Source of the DNA: Arthrobacter sp. AFG20
GTDB lineage: Bacteria; Actinomycetota; Actinomycetes; Actinomycetales; Micrococcaceae
Assembly: GCF_002892795.1 (NCBI RefSeq)
Contig: NZ_PJMC01000003.1
Coordinates: forward strand, 186,001 to 250,000
Direction: 5' to 3'
Length of the DNA stretch: 64,000 nt
How positions within the stretch are numbered: position 1 is the first letter of the stretch; each line of letters opens with the position of its first letter. Under the pieces are notes generated by a model. It saw nothing but the letters and a program-made list of their open reading frames with translations, was not told the origin of the DNA and made no database searches. The position numbers and the translations under genes were made by a program. Of the stretch, positions 1,774 to 11,336 are shown piece by piece.

Positions 1774-3129
1774 CTAGCCGGCGTTCAGGGACTCCGGCTC
1801 GCTGACGCCGTCGGCCTCCGTCACCGACGATGACCCAGTGCGCGCCAGTACCAGCTTCAAGACCAGCAGCGTTCCGGTGGCCACCAGCGCGGCCAGGGCA
1901 AAGATGCCGAAACCCCAACCCTGGTTGCCGGCAGCGAACAGCTGTCCGCCCATCCACGGGCCGAAGACCGCCCCGAAGCGCCCGATTCCCGTGGTCCAGC
2001 CGATGGCTGTGGCGCGGCTCGCTGTGGGGTAGACGTGGGCGACGGCTGCGTACACCATGGTCTGCGCGCTGAACAGGAACACCCCGGCCGCGAACACCAG
2101 GACATACGTGGCAATCAGGGGCAGATGCGCCCCGAGGGAGTAGACGGCGGCCGCGGTCAGGGCGAACCAGATGATCGCCACGCGCACCGGGCCGAACCTG
2201 TCGGCGATCCGACCGGCAATGAACATGCCCGCGATGCCGCCGCCGTTGATCACCAGCAGGAAGGCCAGCGCGGAGCCGAGGTTGTAACCTTCCGACCGCA
2301 TCAGCGCAGGCAGCCACGTGCTCACGCCGTAGACCAGCAGCAGTCCGGCGAAGGAGGTCAACCAGAACAGCGTGTTGATCCGCCAGCGGTCGCGGCTGAA
2401 GAGCTGGGCCAGGGCAGCCTTCCGGTCGGAGGCGGCAGCGGCCTCCCCGGCAGCAGGAATCGCGAGTCCATACCGTTGCGAGAGGCGCTCGGCTGCTGCG
2501 GTGCGGCCCTTGGCCATCAGGAAGGCCATCGATTCGGGCATGAAGCGCGCCACGAGCGGGACCGCGACGAACAGCGGAACCACGCCGATGAGGAACACCG
2601 TCCGCCAGCCGAAGTCCTCGAGCAGCCAGATCCCGAGCGTTGAAGCAGCGATACCGCCGGCGTGGTGTGCGGTCATGAGGACACCAATCAGCAGGTTCCG
2701 GCGACCTTCTGGCGCGTACTCGGCGACGAGCGCGATCGCCGTCGGCAGCAGCCCGCCCAGCCCCAGTCCGGCAACCAGACGGGCCGCGCCGAACAGGGTC
2801 ACATCCGGAGCGACGGCGCAAAGACCTGAGGCGACGGAGAAGAGCGCGCAGCAGAGCAGGAGAACCCTCTTGCGGCCGATCCGGTCCGTAGCCATGCCGG
2901 CGGAGAGCGCCCCGAGCAGCATCCCGAAGGTGGCGACACTGCCGACGTCGCCCGCTTTCGCCGCAGACAGACCGAAAGCCTTGTCGGCGAGCATGTCCGG
3001 CAGCGCGGCGCCGTAAACGAAGAGGTCCAGGCCGTCGAAGAAAACGAGCAGCCAGCAGAGGGCGACGACTGCTGCCGCCACCCTGGCCGATGACCGGGTC
3101 CGGTCAGTGAGAACTTCAGGAAGCATCAT
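1774..3129 (-). CDS. MFS transporter, aromatic acid:H+ symporter type
   Basis: A 451-residue, twelve-segment major facilitator. The first membrane segment carries the LVFFDGLDLFVYGAALP sequence typical of the aromatic acid:H+ symporter (AAHS) family (PcaK, BenK, GalT relatives), and the loop between segments 2 and 3 has the MFS motif as ATDRIGRKRVLLL. I start it at the ATG at 3129, preceded by AAAGGG at suitable spacing; the open frame continues 38 codons upstream without a good ribosome site. Upstream lies a palindrome (3208-3219) shared with the neighbouring GntR gene and the ring-cleavage operon, so it probably imports the aromatic acid degraded by the genes at 4160-8110. The exact substrate is inferred, not seen. 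Confidence 0.85.
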   Translation of the reverse strand: MMLPEVLTDRTRSSARVAAAVVALCWLLVFFDGLDLFVYGAALPDMLADKAFGLSAAKAGDVGSVATFGMLLGALSAGMATDRIGRKRVLLLCCALFSVASGLCAVAPDVTLFGAARLVAGLGLGGLLPTAIALVAEYAPEGRRNLLIGVLMTAHHAGGIAASTLGIWLLEDFGWRTVFLIGVVPLFVAVPLVARFMPESMAFLMAKGRTAAAERLSQRYGLAIPAAGEAAAASDRKAALAQLFSRDRWRINTLFWLTSFAGLLLVYGVSTWLPALMRSEGYNLGSALAFLLVINGGGIAGMFIAGRIADRFGPVRVAIIWFALTAAAVYSLGAHLPLIATYVLVFAAGVFLFSAQTMVYAAVAHVYPTASRATAIGWTTGIGRFGAVFGPWMGGQLFAAGNQGWGFGIFALAALVATGTLLVLKLVLARTGSSSVTEADGVSEPESLNAG

Positions 3130-3207
3130 TGCTGCCCTTTCAAAAAAGTAGGGGAAAGCCTTGTGGCCGTCCCCACTGTAGGCGGTGACAACAATCACGT
3201 CAACTAA

Positions 3208-3219
3208 ATTGTTAGCAAT
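3208..3219. promoter_or_regulatory. Operator-like palindrome ATTGTTAGCAAT upstream of the MFS gene
   Basis: ATTGTTAGCAAT has ATTG/CAAT half-sites with a 4-base centre, as expected for a FadR-type GntR operator. The flanks ACTAA and C match those of the copy at 4070-4081. It lies 79 bases upstream of the MFS start, between that gene and the GntR gene. Confidence 0.6.
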
Positions 3220-3312
3220 CGCAGCCAGCGGGCGCGCAGGCAAGAAAAAGGCCGCATCCGGCCGCGCGTGCGGTCGAAAGCGGCCTCAATGAGGGCAGCA
3301 GGGACTGGATGG

Positions 3313-3972
3313 TCAGGGGTTGGAGGACCGGATGACGTCGGCAACGCTCTCGAGATGCACCCGCATGGCCTCCGCAGCGGCGTCGGGATCATGCGCGCAG
3401 ACGGCATCAATAATCGCGAGATGCTGCGGCAGGGACACCGCCGGGCGGCCGGGCTGGCGCGCGAGCCGGAACTGGAAGCGCACAGCCTGGCCGCGGAGCC
3501 GTTGGATCGTCGCAGCAGCCGTCTGCTGGGCGCTGATCTCGATAAGTCGCGCATGGAGCGTTTGGTTGCCCTCGGAGTAGGACTCCCTGTCGCCGCGCTC
3601 CACCGCGTCCTTCATGCTCTCCGCCAGCTGCTGAAGCTCGGCGGCCTGGTCGGCAGTGATCCGCTCGGCCGCCTTCCGGGCGCAGAGCGCCTCCAGCGCG
3701 GCACGCACCTCGGTGATTTCCACTGCCTCGTCAACAGATACCGCCCGCACCCTGGCACCGCGGTTCTGAACGCGCTCCACCAGGCCCTCGACACTCAGCT
3801 CCGATAGCGCCACCCGGACGTTCCCCCTGCTGGCCCCGTACTCGGCAGCAAGATCAGCCTCCACCAACCGCTGGTTTGGTACTAGCTCGCCATTCACGAT
3901 GGCAGTGCGCAGCAGATCAGCCAGCTCGGCGGCCGTCATAGTCCGGCCCGGCGCTCCGTCAAGGGTCTCCAC
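3313..3972 (-). CDS. GntR-family transcriptional regulator (FadR subfamily)
   Basis: This 219-residue protein has an N-terminal winged helix-turn-helix (LADLLRTAIVNGELVPNQRLVEADLAAEYGAS, read as separate segments: helix 1, PNQRL, EADLA) and an all-helical FCD ligand domain with the E-VRAALE and LH-ARLIEIS segments that carry the usual metal or ligand contacts. The frame opens further upstream, but the GTG at 3972 has the only good ribosome site (GGGAGG, 9 bases away). Starting there also leaves the palindrome at 4010-4021 in the leader, where autoregulation would place it. It stands between the aromatic acid importer and the divergent ring-cleavage operon and very likely controls both. Confidence 0.87.
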   Translation of the reverse strand: METLDGAPGRTMTAAELADLLRTAIVNGELVPNQRLVEADLAAEYGASRGNVRVALSELSVEGLVERVQNRGARVRAVSVDEAVEITEVRAALEALCARKAAERITADQAAELQQLAESMKDAVERGDRESYSEGNQTLHARLIEISAQQTAAATIQRLRGQAVRFQFRLARQPGRPAVSLPQHLAIIDAVCAHDPDAAAEAMRVHLESVADVIRSSNP

Positions 3973-4009
3973 GTGTCGCCACCTCCCGGCGGCACTGACC
4001 GGCCGCAGC

Positions 4010-4021
4010 ATTGTTAGCAAT
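4010..4021. promoter_or_regulatory. Operator-like palindrome ATTGTTAGCAAT upstream of the GntR gene
   Basis: Identical in all 12 bases to the site at 3208-3219. It lies 38 bases upstream of the GTG start chosen for the GntR gene and 60 bases from the third site at 4070-4081, a spacing that would put two sites on nearly the same face of the helix. Confidence 0.6.
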
Positions 4022-4069: not shown

Positions 4070-4081
4070 ATTGTTGACAAT
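4070..4081. promoter_or_regulatory. Operator-like palindrome ATTGTTGACAAT upstream of the ring-cleavage operon
   Basis: The half-sites ATTG and CAAT match the other two copies; only the centre differs (TTGA against TTAG). It lies 79 bases upstream of the dioxygenase ATG, the same distance at which the first copy precedes the MFS start. The flanking CACTAA also resembles the CAACTAA of the first copy. Confidence 0.6.
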
Positions 4082-4159
4082 CCCCTCGAGGAGCTGGTTC
4101 ACTCGAAGCAACGGCGTCGTTCGGCGGACGCCCCTCCCCGACCTGACGAAGGAAAGCTA

Positions 4160-5122
4160 ATGAACGACGCCTTTCATGATGTGGCGCACCTGGGCCACGT
4201 TGAACTGCTGACGCCCGAATTCGAGAAGAGCCTGTGGTTCTTCACCGATCTCCTCGCCATGGAGGAGGTGGCCCGCGACGGCGACTCCGTGTTCCTCCAC
4301 GCCTGGGATGACTACGAGCACCACACCATCAAACTCACGGCGGCCCCGACGTCGGGCATTGGCAAGGTGGCGCTGCGCGCCTCCAGCGAGGCCGCGCTGC
4401 AGCGCCGCGTGGCGGCGATCGAGGCGAGCGGGCAGGGCATCGGATGGCACGACGGCGGGCCGAGCCTTGGCCCGACATACGCGTTCACTGACCCGGACGG
4501 GCATCCGATGGACATCTACTACGAAACCGAGTGGCACGTCCCCACCGAGGAAGCCCGCCCGGCCCTGAAGAACCAGGCCTCCCGGTTTCCCGGCGTCGGC
4601 GTCAATGCCCGCCGGCTGGACCACGTGAACTTCCTGGCCGCGGACGTCACGCTCAACGGCAACTTCGCCGCAGAAGCCCTCGGCGGCCGAGCCACGGAGC
4701 AGATCCGCCTCAACAGCGGCAAGCTCGGCGCCCAGTGGTTCACCTTCACGAACAAGTCCTACGACCTGGTCTACAGCGAAGACTGGACCGGCAGCAACGG
4801 CCGGCTCCACCACATCGCCTTCGCCACCGACACCCGCGAGGACATCCTCAAGGCAGCGGACATCTTCCTGGAGAACGGCATCCACATCGAGTCCGGCCCG
4901 CACAAGCACGCCATCCAGCAGACGTTCTTCCTGTATGTCTACGAACCCGGCGGAAACCGGATCGAGTTCTGCAACTCCGGAGCCCGGATGATCCTGGCCC
5001 CGGACTGGAAGACCGTCGAGTGGACCGAAGCCGACCGGGCCAAGGGCCAGGCATGGGGCATGAAGACCATCGAGACCTTCCACACCCACGGCACCCCGCC
5101 GGTCGCCGTTCCCGCGCACTGA
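4160..5122 (+). CDS. Type I (VOC-family) extradiol ring-cleavage dioxygenase
   Basis: The 320-residue protein has the paired vicinal-oxygen-chelate architecture of catechol 2,3-dioxygenase-type enzymes: an N-terminal half (residues 8-125, HLGHVEL ... DPDGHPMDIYY) and a catalytic half (150-275). The Fe(II) ligands can be read as H155 (LDHVNF), H218 (LHHIAF) and E269 (NRIEF). It uses O2 to open an aromatic diol next to the hydroxyls. The start has GAAGGAAAG upstream. The three following genes convert 4-oxalomesaconate to pyruvate and oxaloacetate, so the likely substrate is gallate (direct product 4-oxalomesaconate) or protocatechuate. Gallate and protocatechuate 4,5-dioxygenases are normally class II LigB-type proteins, which makes this enzyme type unexpected here. 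Confidence 0.88.
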   Translation: MNDAFHDVAHLGHVELLTPEFEKSLWFFTDLLAMEEVARDGDSVFLHAWDDYEHHTIKLTAAPTSGIGKVALRASSEAALQRRVAAIEASGQGIGWHDGGPSLGPTYAFTDPDGHPMDIYYETEWHVPTEEARPALKNQASRFPGVGVNARRLDHVNFLAADVTLNGNFAAEALGGRATEQIRLNSGKLGAQWFTFTNKSYDLVYSEDWTGSNGRLHHIAFATDTREDILKAADIFLENGIHIESGPHKHAIQQTFFLYVYEPGGNRIEFCNSGARMILAPDWKTVEWTEADRAKGQAWGMKTIETFHTHGTPPVAVPAH

Positions 5123-5150
5123 CCCGCCTAGCCGCCCACAGGAGAACAAC

Positions 5151-6362
5151 GTGTCCCTTCACCCACTCACCGCACCCGCTCTGGCGGCGGGCCCACGACG
5201 GGCCGGCAGCCAACTCGCCATTCCGTGCTGGTACATGCGGGGAGGAACATCCAAGGGGCCGTTCTTCCGCGCCGAAGATCTGCCGCAGGATCCTGCCGCC
5301 CGCGACGCCATCCTCCTGGCCGCCATGGGCTCGCCGGATCCGCGGCAGATCGACGGCCTGGGCGGCGCGCATCCGCTCACCAGCAAGGCCGGGATCGTCG
5401 CCCGAAGCCAACGGCCCGGCGTCGACCTGGAATTTCTGTTCGCCCAGCTCCAGCCCCTCAGCGACACGGTGGACACCACCCCCAACTGCGGCAACATGCT
5501 TGCCGCGGTGGTGCCGTTCGCCATTGAGTCGGGCCTTTTGATCCCCGACGGCGACATCACCACCGCGCGCGTCCTCACCCTGAACACCAGCATGGTCGCC
5601 GAGATCAGCGTGCCCACACCGGTGGATGACTCGGGCCGGTACGTCGGTTACACCGGGGACGCGCGGATCGACGGCGTTCCCGGCCCCGCGGCCGCCGTCG
5701 AAATCAACTTCCTCGACACCGCCGGTTCGGTCTGCGATTCCCTGCTGCCGACGGGCAACGTCCGGGACACCGTGGACATCCCAGGGTTCGGGCCGGTGGA
5801 CGTGACCTGCATCGACAACGGCATGCCCCTGGTCATCGTCAGCGCGGCCGACCTCTACCGCACCGGCCAGGAAACCACTGCCGAGCTGAACAGGGACCGG
5901 GAGCTCAAGGACCGGCTCGAGGCCCTCCGGATCAGCTGCGGCGAGATCATGGGCCTGGGCGACGTGGCCTCGAAAAACTATCCGAAAATGACCCTGGTTT
6001 CCCCGCCGGCACACGGCGGGGCGGTCAGCACCCGCAGCTTCATCCCGCACGTCTGCCACGAGTCGATCGGCGTGCTGGCGGCGGTCACCGCCGCCACTGC
6101 CTGCGTCCTCGACGGCAGTGTTGCGGCCGCCGTCGCCACTGTCTCCGGCGGCGCATCCCGCACCATTTCCGTGGAGCATCCGGGCGGGGAATTCACCGTG
6201 AGGCTGGAACTCGACCCCAATGACCCCACCCGCGTGGCCCAGTCTGCGCTGCTGCGCACCGCCCGCCTCATCATGGCCGGGGACGTCATGGTCCCGGCAC
6301 ACCTTTGGAACCCTACGGACCCCTCTTTCCCGGCATCAGCGCCCAAGGAGCAAGAACTGTGA
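5151..6362 (+). CDS. galD: 4-oxalomesaconate tautomerase (GalD/LigU-like, PrpF family)
   Basis: A 403-residue PrpF-family isomerase. Family hallmarks are MRGGTSKG at residues 29-36 and the TPNCGNM motif with C113; the second half contains a matching ASKNYPKM/ISCGEIMG region. Within the pathway it would move the double bond of 4-oxalomesaconate to give the substrate of the hydratase encoded next. GTG start with GGAG 6 bases upstream; the N-terminus is about 20 residues longer than usual. The stop overlaps the next start (GTGA). PrpF relatives also isomerise 2-methylaconitate, but the LigJ and LigK neighbours make the aromatic role far more likely. Confidence 0.85.
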   Translation: MSLHPLTAPALAAGPRRAGSQLAIPCWYMRGGTSKGPFFRAEDLPQDPAARDAILLAAMGSPDPRQIDGLGGAHPLTSKAGIVARSQRPGVDLEFLFAQLQPLSDTVDTTPNCGNMLAAVVPFAIESGLLIPDGDITTARVLTLNTSMVAEISVPTPVDDSGRYVGYTGDARIDGVPGPAAAVEINFLDTAGSVCDSLLPTGNVRDTVDIPGFGPVDVTCIDNGMPLVIVSAADLYRTGQETTAELNRDRELKDRLEALRISCGEIMGLGDVASKNYPKMTLVSPPAHGGAVSTRSFIPHVCHESIGVLAAVTAATACVLDGSVAAAVATVSGGASRTISVEHPGGEFTVRLELDPNDPTRVAQSALLRTARLIMAGDVMVPAHLWNPTDPSFPASAPKEQEL

Positions 6363-7384
6363 TTATCGATATCCACGGCCACTACACCACGGCCCCGCCG
6401 GCACTCACCGAATGGCGCGACCGGCAGATTGCCGGCCTCGAGGACCCGTCCCTGGCCCCCCGCCGCTCGGAACTGAAGATCTCCGACGACGAACTCCGGG
6501 AAAGCATCGAGCAGAACCAGTTGCGGCTCATGGATGAGCGCGGCATCGACCTCACAGTGTTCTCGCCGCGGGCTTCCTTCATGGCCCACCACGTGGGCGG
6601 CTTCGAGACGTCCGCCGAGTGGGCCGCCATCTGCAACGAACTCTGCTACCGGGTCAGCCAGCTCTACCCCGAACGCTTCGTCCCCGCCGCCATGCTCCCG
6701 CAGTCCCCCGGCGCCGACCCCGCCAGCTGCCTTCCCGAGCTCACCCGCTGCGTCGAGGAATACGGTGCCGTCGCGCTGAACCTGAACCCGGACCCGTCCG
6801 GCGGCCACTGGACGGCGCCGCCGCTGACGGACCACTCCTGGTACCCCGTCTACGAAAAGATGGTGGAATACGACATCCCGGGCATGGTCCACGTCAGCAC
6901 CAGCATCAACCCGGCCTTCCACACCACCGGCGCGCACTACCTGAACGCCGACACCACCGCCTTCATGCAGCTGATCCAGGGCGACCTCTTCGCCGACTTT
7001 CCAGGCCTGAAGCTGGTCATCCCCCACGGCGGCGGCGCCGTGCCCTACCACTGGGGACGCTTCCGCGGCCTGGCCATGGCCCTGAAGAAGCCAGCCCTGG
7101 AGGAACACCTGCTGGGCAACGTCTTCTTCGACACCTGCGTCTACCACCAGCCCGGCATCGAGCTTCTCCTGGACGTCATCCCCACCCGGAACATCCTGTT
7201 CGCGTCCGAGATGATTGGCGCCGTCCGGGACATCGACCCCTGCACCGGCCACAACTTCGATGACACGGCACGCTACATCGAATCCGCCGGACTCAACGAG
7301 GCCGACCTCGCAGGCATCCAGGAACACAACACCCGTACCGTCTACCCCCGCCTCAACGCACTGCTCAAACAGCAGGGCCGCTAA
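6359..7384 (+). CDS. ligJ: 4-oxalomesaconate hydratase (LigJ-like amidohydrolase)
   Basis: This 341-residue amidohydrolase-superfamily protein begins M-I-I-D-I-H-G-H-Y, giving the HxH metal site at H6 and H8, with a second conserved histidine region at IPHGGGAVPYHWGR and a late acidic and aromatic block (FASEMIGAV, DPCTGHNFDDT) that is characteristic of LigJ. LigJ adds water to 4-oxalomesaconate to form 4-carboxy-4-hydroxy-2-oxoadipate. The GTG start at 6359 overlaps the galD stop and has a perfect AAGGAG at 6345-6350; an upstream in-frame ATG inside galD lacks support. Confidence 0.88.
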   Translation: MIIDIHGHYTTAPPALTEWRDRQIAGLEDPSLAPRRSELKISDDELRESIEQNQLRLMDERGIDLTVFSPRASFMAHHVGGFETSAEWAAICNELCYRVSQLYPERFVPAAMLPQSPGADPASCLPELTRCVEEYGAVALNLNPDPSGGHWTAPPLTDHSWYPVYEKMVEYDIPGMVHVSTSINPAFHTTGAHYLNADTTAFMQLIQGDLFADFPGLKLVIPHGGGAVPYHWGRFRGLAMALKKPALEEHLLGNVFFDTCVYHQPGIELLLDVIPTRNILFASEMIGAVRDIDPCTGHNFDDTARYIESAGLNEADLAGIQEHNTRTVYPRLNALLKQQGR

Positions 7385-7426
7385 CCCACGGTTTTCGCCA
7401 CCACCAATATTCAGGAGCACAGATCC

Positions 7427-8110
7427 ATGCAGGAACTCGGAGTCGTCCACCGCACCATTACCCGGGCGGACAAGGCCGACGTCAAAGCCCTCTCAGCCTT
7501 CGGCGTCAGCACCATCCACGAGGCCATGGGCAGGCTCGGCCTCATGCGCCCCTACATCCGCCCTGTCTATCCCGAGGCGAAAGTCTGCGGCACCGCCGTT
7601 ACCGTCCTCCTGCAGCCCGGCGACAACTGGATGTTGCACGTCGCCGCAGAGCAGGTACAGCCGGGCGATGTGGTGGTGGCCGCCTGCACCACCGAGTGTG
7701 AGGACGGCTTCTTCGGCGACCTGCTCGCCACGTCCCTCCGCGCCCAGGGCGCCGAAGGACTCATCATCGACGGCGGCTGCCGCGACGTGGAGACGCTGCA
7801 GGAAATGGACTTCCCCGTGTTCAGCCGCGCCATCAACTCCAAAGGCACCGTGAAGGCCACCGTAGGATCCGTCAACGTCCCCGTTGTCTGCGCCAATGCC
7901 CTCGTGAACCCCGGCGACGTGGTGATTGGCGACGTCGACGGCGTCGTCGTGGTACCTGCCGCCCGCGCGGCTGAAGTTGCCGCTGCCGCCCGCGCCCGGG
8001 AGGACAATGAAGTAGCCAAGCGCCAGCGGCTCGCCGCCGGCGAACTCGGCTTGGACATCTACTCCATGCGCGACCGTCTCACTGCCGCTGGCCTCCGGTA
8101 CATCGACTGA
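7427..8110 (+). CDS. ligK: 4-carboxy-4-hydroxy-2-oxoadipate aldolase (LigK/GalC-like)
   Basis: The 227-residue protein belongs to the HMG/CHA aldolase and RraA-like fold family. The diagnostic residues are present: GDLL (97-100) and DGGCRD (115-120), which bind the divalent metal and the pyruvate part of the substrate. It would split 4-carboxy-4-hydroxy-2-oxoadipate into pyruvate and oxaloacetate, ending the pathway. RraA regulators share the fold, but the position directly after galD and ligJ (42-base gap, good leader) argues for the aldolase. The C-terminal helix extension also fits the aldolase rather than RraA. Confidence 0.87.
   Translation: MQELGVVHRTITRADKADVKALSAFGVSTIHEAMGRLGLMRPYIRPVYPEAKVCGTAVTVLLQPGDNWMLHVAAEQVQPGDVVVAACTTECEDGFFGDLLATSLRAQGAEGLIIDGGCRDVETLQEMDFPVFSRAINSKGTVKATVGSVNVPVVCANALVNPGDVVIGDVDGVVVVPAARAAEVAAAARAREDNEVAKRQRLAAGELGLDIYSMRDRLTAAGLRYID

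Positions 8111-8876: not shown

Positions 8877-11336
<2,460 letters not shown>

Follow-up and report, generated by a model that had tools for sequence, protein, structure and literature searches.

In Pseudomonas putida and Sphingobium SYK-6, gallate, an acid of plant tannins, is converted to 4-oxalomesaconate (OMA) by GalA and DesB, respectively, ahead of the tautomerase GalD, a hydratase, and an aldolase. These two dioxygenases are placed in the type II LigB superfamily where PMC4250580 and PMC3962378 treat them, and the initial annotation of the DNA described here was right, on the filing in PMC4250580, to set them apart from the present enzyme. Here, we describe an operon (positions 4160 to 8110) in a 64,000-nucleotide stretch of contig NZ_PJMC01000003.1 from Arthrobacter sp. 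AFG20 (the whole stretch is referred to as the window) in which the same reaction is predicted for a type I enzyme of the vicinal oxygen chelate (VOC) fold. Judged from gene content, it is very probable that a VOC-fold gallate dioxygenase, now misnamed catechol 2,3-dioxygenase, replaces GalA/DesB in a gallate degradation operon. The system would then be a gallate pathway of the known kind in which an enzyme of unrelated fold has taken over ring opening; the clade of this enzyme is widespread and probably misnamed. No type I gallate dioxygenase was found among the papers listed in searches of the open-access literature, and an earlier description in subscription papers is possible.

The dioxygenase gene (4160-5122, plus strand) encodes a 320-amino-acid protein whose sole Pfam match is the VOC/Glyoxalase family PF00903, with no LigB domain; its predicted model (m4a289dc81d72) has the VOC fold and matches catechol 2,3-dioxygenases. 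The 2-His-1-Glu metal triad, H155, H218, and E269, does not vary across 40 aligned sequences, among them XylE and a paralogue from the same genome. On the NCBIfam catechol 2,3-dioxygenase model TIGR03211, the protein scores 322.8 bits, and it owes its automatic name to having just passed the cutoff of 320.2. The next gene (5151-6362, plus strand; 403 amino acids, GTG start) encodes an OMA tautomerase of the GalD/LigU type, which reaches 505 bits on NF033377 (cutoff, 440) and 372 bits against a (4E)-oxalomesaconate Delta-isomerase in the PDB (6p3j). Its stop codon is overlapped by the GTG start, at 6359, of the gene for an OMA hydratase of the amidohydrolase type, LigJ (6359-7384, plus strand; 341 amino acids, Amidohydro_2), the listed open reading frame (ORF) of which is open back to 6305. 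Family and structure searches with the hydratase used 6362-7381, that is, the sequence minus its first codon; there was no match in NCBIfam, and the four best PDB sequences are all named 4-oxalomesaconate hydratase (2gwg, 585 bits; 6dwv, 6dxq, and 6dxs, about 472 bits). The last gene (7427-8110, plus strand; 227 amino acids) encodes a 4-carboxy-4-hydroxy-2-oxoadipate (CHA) aldolase/oxaloacetate decarboxylase, LigK/GalC, with 388 bits on TIGR02798 (cutoff, 304.5), a score above the cutoff of NF006731 as well, and 262 bits against PDB entry 3noj. OMA tautomerase, OMA hydratase, and CHA aldolase are thus jointly present by sequence, and family assignment of the operon genes revealed neither LigC nor LigI. 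The gene families, their order, and the metal ligands are as the initial annotation had read them, and so is the lack of LigC and LigI. From the completeness of this gene set it had deduced gallate, and this argument holds in the genome of the strain itself and in relatives: gallate is indicated as the substrate because the lower pathway is complete while the protocatechuate 4,5-cleavage steps LigC and LigI were not found.

The best 80 loci among the matches listed in species genomes (64 to 97% identity, all actinobacterial by their titles and several of them short contigs) were probed with 21 reference proteins at fixed thresholds. GalD was found in 77 of these loci, LigK in 76, and both in 75; a hydratase of either kind is encoded in 66 (LigJ in 11 and the PIG-L-type GalB in 55), and 65 loci have all three steps. 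Neither LigC nor LigAB was detected in any of the 80 at the thresholds used, and in protocatechuate clusters the LigC, LigI, and LigAB probes do match. Seven loci carry a tannase gene, which is also present on an Agrobacterium plasmid. DesA/LigM-like O-demethylase genes of the 3-O-methylgallate/syringate type are found in 4 loci and in 6 of 13 hand-picked stretches from the bacterial family; in Arthrobacter castelli (locus L022), a LigM (918.5 bits; cutoff, 580) shares one cluster with GalB, LigK, GalD, and the dioxygenase. With a tannase or LigM beside the dioxygenase, catechol or protocatechuate is hard to explain as its substrate. Plasmids from Agrobacterium (the one with the tannase), Roseibium, Thioclava, and Pantoea piersonii combine this dioxygenase with a PIG-L hydratase gene (galB), galC, and galD, and no LigB-type gene is annotated in those stretches; tblastn revealed the same partnership of PIG-L hydratase, LigK, and GalD in three Rhizobium-group loci (L111, L117, and L118). 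The company of tannases, LigM/DesA-type O-demethylases, and proteobacterial gal clusters without GalA is a further reason to consider gallate the substrate.

A check of the genome for a LigB-type enzyme and for ligC and ligI elsewhere, which the initial annotation had called for, was negative and left the gallate reading standing. In this genome (4.9 Mb in 49 contigs, estimated to be 100% complete), no PF02900 (LigB) domain was found by a family search that gives matches in 4 of 14 control genomes. LigI from Arthrobacter keyseri had no match in it at an E value of 0.001; with this query, LigI-like genes were recovered (at 1e-40) from 30 of the 295 genomes sampled in the bacterial family, this one not among them. 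No LigC orthologue was found in the genome either: the 24 matches to the query, at 25 to 36%, are mostly partial, and the best 8, when reexamined, were at 24 to 35%, compared with 66 to 96% for true LigC relatives. The genome encodes a protocatechuate 3,4-dioxygenase pair, PcaG/PcaH, with both subunits above the curated cutoffs, so that protocatechuate has an ortho route in this strain.

Among the 295 family genomes (thresholds, E of 1e-80 for the dioxygenase, 1e-60 for GalD, and <1e-89 for pcm-type LigAB), the dioxygenase is present in 45, from 14 of 32 genera, and GalD is present in 46. The two share 43 genomes (Fisher P, 1.4e-45, without correction for relatedness). They lie within 6 kb of each other in 36 of the 43 genomes and farther apart or on different contigs in the other 7, because of which the partnership is not only a matter of linkage. 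In the three genomes with GalD and no dioxygenase, the GalD cluster reads LigC-LigAB-LigI-LigJ-GalD-LigK. All 10 genomes with a pcm-type LigAB have LigI, and none has GalD.

In a FastTree phylogeny, the window protein, the proteins from the 80 loci, and 12 plasmid relatives (93 sequences, including a few without gal neighbors) form one clade with a support of 0.961. The support was 0.993, with one stray sequence included, after the addition of a mostly Firmicutes group (P0121 to P0240, from Geobacillus, Alicyclobacillus, and Paenibacillus; 116 proteins kept of 120 listed, with 4 dropped by length). This group does not qualify as a sister clade, as it is not monophyletic in the tree, the gal-type clade being among the descendants of its common ancestor (support, 0.714). 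For homoprotocatechuate dioxygenase, an excerpt of PMC6308299 reports calculations that link the second-sphere His200 to extradiol versus intradiol selectivity. The window dioxygenase lacks this catalytic histidine (His199/200): the position is occupied by Tyr201 in 93 of 93 clade members, the window protein included, and by His in all seven outgroup type I enzymes. As a gallate-specific signature, Tyr201 is weakened by its presence in 116 of 116 proteins of the mostly Firmicutes group around PDB entry 9wgj. Four other residues, D50, H248, R276, and H310, are found in 92 or 93 of the 93 relatives and are nearly absent from that group; among six further family members checked, two (G133 and G001) have Tyr at position 248. 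The four residues may bind the carboxylate and the third hydroxyl of gallate.

Several described enzymes are of type I as well, namely, XylE (1mpy), 3lm4, AphC (7q2a), and homoprotocatechuate 2,3-dioxygenase, but the window operon contains no meta-pathway genes, and the window dioxygenase differs from these enzymes in having Tyr201 for the second-sphere His and, in addition, D50, H248, R276, and H310. The carboxylate-binding Arg243 and Arg293 of homoprotocatechuate dioxygenase align with S/T245 and G296. The "catechol 2,3-dioxygenase" of Geobacillus zalihae, identical to the 9wgj sequence over the 309 residues compared, is 53% identical to the window enzyme and shares Tyr201, R293, Q297, and H308 with it, whereas its group largely lacks the four residues named above. 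Entry 9wgj itself was deposited as "Catechol 1,2-dioxygenase," although its fold family is extradiol. Type I enzymes are also known from the pra pathway of protocatechuate 2,3-cleavage in Paenibacillus. Thermus relatives (44 to 45% identity) occur with a 4-hydroxy-2-oxovalerate (HOA) aldolase and acetaldehyde dehydrogenase (XylK/XylQ relatives) and, in contrast to the window enzyme, have kept His at position 201; one of them adjoins a 4-hydroxybenzoate 3-monooxygenase. The pra and Thermus enzymes likely act on a carboxylated catechol. A second VOC dioxygenase of the strain (C13:90497-95731; loci L002 and L007) is 33% identical to the first, has His at the Tyr201 position, and adjoins genes for fumarylacetoacetate-hydrolase-like, FAD monooxygenase, and amidohydrolase proteins, a further uncharacterized aromatic cluster.

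The pcm cluster of A. keyseri, which the initial annotation had named as the natural comparison, shares relatives of LigJ (72% identity) and LigK with the window operon but has LigAB, LigC, and LigI and no annotated GalD. PcmA did not serve as a VOC comparison, as it is a single-chain type II enzyme in the account given in PMC8431788; the cluster was of use as a positive control for LigC and LigI. According to the same source, as excerpted, the LigAB-type PcaA of Pseudarthrobacter accepts gallate as well, with 44% of the activity seen on protocatechuate, and type II gallate activity is therefore already known in this bacterial family.

Several observations weigh against a gallate dioxygenase in GalA's place. 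At least one lower-pathway gene is not within reach in 15 of the 80 loci, and L051 and L086 have none; among the plasmids, L012 and L108 (Pantoea At-9b and Chimaeribacter) are devoid of lower-pathway genes within 7 kb of the dioxygenase, a Methylobacterium stretch (L009) has LigJ and LigK without GalD, and on Roseomonas plasmids (L010/L112), the dioxygenase lies beside LigAB-like and LigI-like genes. Two of the 45 dioxygenase genomes lack GalD, both among the 10 with pcm-type LigAB, and have the dioxygenase beside O-demethylase genes, so some members of the dioxygenase family may prefer 3-O-methylgallate. LigB-domain proteins occur in 102 of the 295 genomes overall, and 18 of the 45 dioxygenase carriers hold one elsewhere (in G037 and G235, the pcm-type LigAB), because of which the swap is visible in GalD clusters and not genome by genome; on a shared contig, the LigB-domain protein is never closer to the dioxygenase than about 40 kb. 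Neither a LigM/DesA orthologue nor a tannase was found in the genome of the strain itself, the latter result being weak, as the tannase family matched in no control genome. The nearest solved relative, moreover, is the one filed under the name catechol 1,2-dioxygenase.

The name catechol 2,3-dioxygenase could also be taken at its word, with an ordinary enzyme of that kind merely sitting in a gal operon. The fold match and the score on TIGR03211, 2.6 bits above the cutoff, speak for this and against a gallate enzyme, but the catechol meta-pathway genes XylG, XylF, XylJ, XylK, XylQ, and XylI were detected in none of the 80 loci at the thresholds used (the zeros for XylF and XylJ are weak, as these probes had no convincing positive control). 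A XylG match in L022, to an aldehyde dehydrogenase at 35%, did not reach the threshold; the XylG, XylK, XylQ, and XylI probes do match in Thermus and other outgroup loci. With the second-sphere His of the outgroups replaced by Tyr in all 93 relatives, even if Tyr is also fixed in the mostly Firmicutes group, an ordinary catechol enzyme is extremely improbable. A type I protocatechuate 4,5-dioxygenase, whose semialdehyde product would be oxidized and hydrolyzed by unlinked LigC- and LigI-like proteins before entering this operon, seems very improbable as well. GalD, LigJ, and LigK have a role in protocatechuate 4,5-cleavage too, and 3 of the 295 family genomes have GalD within a full LigAB-LigC-LigI cluster, yet LigC was detected in none of the 80 loci, neither LigI nor a LigC orthologue was found in the strain's own genome, which has protocatechuate 3,4-dioxygenase, and all 10 family genomes with pcm-type LigAB are without GalD.

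A dioxygenase for 3-O-methylgallate, or for both 3-O-methylgallate and gallate, would open the ring before demethylation, after which LigI or an esterase would deliver OMA. In G037, G235, and G282 (loci L130, L131, and L128), the dioxygenase lies beside genes for a syringate/3-O-methylgallate-type (DesA/LigM-like) O-demethylase, formyltetrahydrofolate deformylase, or methylenetetrahydrofolate reductase, as this explanation would have it, although such neighbors fit the gallate route as well; the demethylase of L130 reaches 482 bits, compared with a DesA cutoff of 800. LigI relatives (69 to 74% identity) adjoin LigC-less operons in 7 of the 80 loci (L014, L016, L025, L026, L050, L056, and L065; an eighth LigI-bearing locus, L069, is cut by a contig end), which is expected if the lactone 2-pyrone-4,6-dicarboxylate (PDC) is formed. 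LigI was rejected as a protocatechuate marker because of these seven operons, and LigI without LigC perhaps reflects salvage of PDC from gallate or 3-O-methylgallate. Against this substrate, the strain's own genome has yielded no LigI and, as said, no DesA/LigM orthologue, the members linked to tannase point to gallate itself, and in L022, a LigM that would make gallate is in the same cluster. On balance, a 3-O-methylgallate enzyme appears quite improbable. A more far-reaching version of the gallate proposal, according to which a second, unrelated gallate dioxygenase family extends over Actinomycetota and Proteobacteria under the name catechol 2,3-dioxygenase, has Tyr in place of the acid-base His, and cuts by an intradiol-like course, is unlikely. 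Gallate cleaved at C3-C4 or at C4-C5 gives the identical product, OMA. Since a cut between the two hydroxyl-bearing carbons would give the same product either way, such a course is at least conceivable.

For the preferred VOC-fold gallate dioxygenase, the pathway would run as follows. Gallate, imported by a transporter of the major facilitator superfamily (MFS), would be bound by the Fe(II) dioxygenase through two adjacent hydroxyls, and O2 would be inserted between C4 and C5 (equal to C3-C4 by symmetry). Ring opening would yield an acid, not a semialdehyde, and hence no LigC step would be needed. GalD would isomerize the keto product, LigJ would hydrate the isomer to CHA, and LigK would split CHA into pyruvate and oxaloacetate. 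In some relatives, gallate may be supplied from tannins by tannase or from syringate or 3-O-methylgallate by O-demethylases. If this is correct, unrelated folds would have given rise to gallate dioxygenase on two occasions. The VOC version would then be a common gallate-opening enzyme in Actinobacteria, to judge from its presence in 45 of 295 family genomes, and would also occur in some agrobacteria, rhizobia, and Enterobacterales. The name catechol 2,3-dioxygenase is carried by about 60 of the 120 nearest proteins listed (hand count), and renaming them would change how the breakdown of tannins, syringate, and lignin is predicted from genomes. The analysis also yields a sequence signature, a motif that resembles an operator, and natural clusters that have either LigB or this enzyme in the same place.

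A gene divergent from the operon (3313-4020, minus strand) encodes a GntR/FCD-family regulator (PF00392 and PF07729), relatives of which adjoin 62 of the 80 loci. The operator-like inverted repeat ATTGTTGACAAT (4070-4081; ATTGT-TG-ACAAT) is a predicted GntR site, and its first base is position 4070, at which the initial annotation had begun the operon. A pattern scan of the window revealed a degenerate second copy, ATTGTTAGCAAT (4010-4021), at the listed start of the GntR gene. ATTGTTGACAAT occurs exactly, on either strand, in 64 of the 80 related loci, which are akin and do not amount to 64 independent cases. In 63 of the 64, it lies close to where a pathway, regulator, or transporter gene starts, at most 60 bases into the gene or 350 bases upstream of it. 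The site stands before whichever gene heads the operon (GalB, LigK, the VOC dioxygenase, or GalD); in 11 instances, the gene behind it is that for GntR. As controls, 19 distinct scrambled half-sites were found in no locus, and 159 further half-sites matched for G+C content were found in at most one locus each; no exact copy was found in 21 other loci scanned, which are proteobacterial, from Thermus or other outgroups, or from protocatechuate clusters. The site contains TTGACA, and part of its conservation could be that of a promoter -35 element; a sigma-70 promoter scan detected no promoter-like site ahead of the operon. The divergent GntR/FCD protein likely reads this operator and would occupy it until released by an inducer.

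The candidate gallate importer is an aromatic acid:H+ symporter-like MFS transporter (1774-3243, minus strand), whose best match is TIGR00895 (313.5 bits, below the cutoff of 418.55) and whose relatives (at least 45% identity) adjoin 12 of the 80 loci. In L134 (2824-6188), a TauT/SsuA-type ATP-binding cassette (ABC) importer, with an ATPase, a permease, and an NMT1-like binding protein, is encoded between the regulator and the dioxygenase and possibly imports gallate; L015 and L136 have similar-sized ORFs at this position. A DUF1932/6-phosphogluconate-dehydrogenase-like protein is encoded near the dioxygenase in 48 of the 80 loci and in proteobacterial gal clusters. The Roseomonas cluster of L010/L112 also has a VanA/VanB-like pair and shows that the two types of dioxygenase can coexist in one cluster. 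One 448-amino-acid protein (P0059) combines a VOC domain with a PrpF (GalD-type) domain and is either a fusion or an assembly artifact. In the window, the operon and a TetR gene on the other strand are followed by a gene for a two-domain peroxidase, KatG type by size, at 8877-11171.

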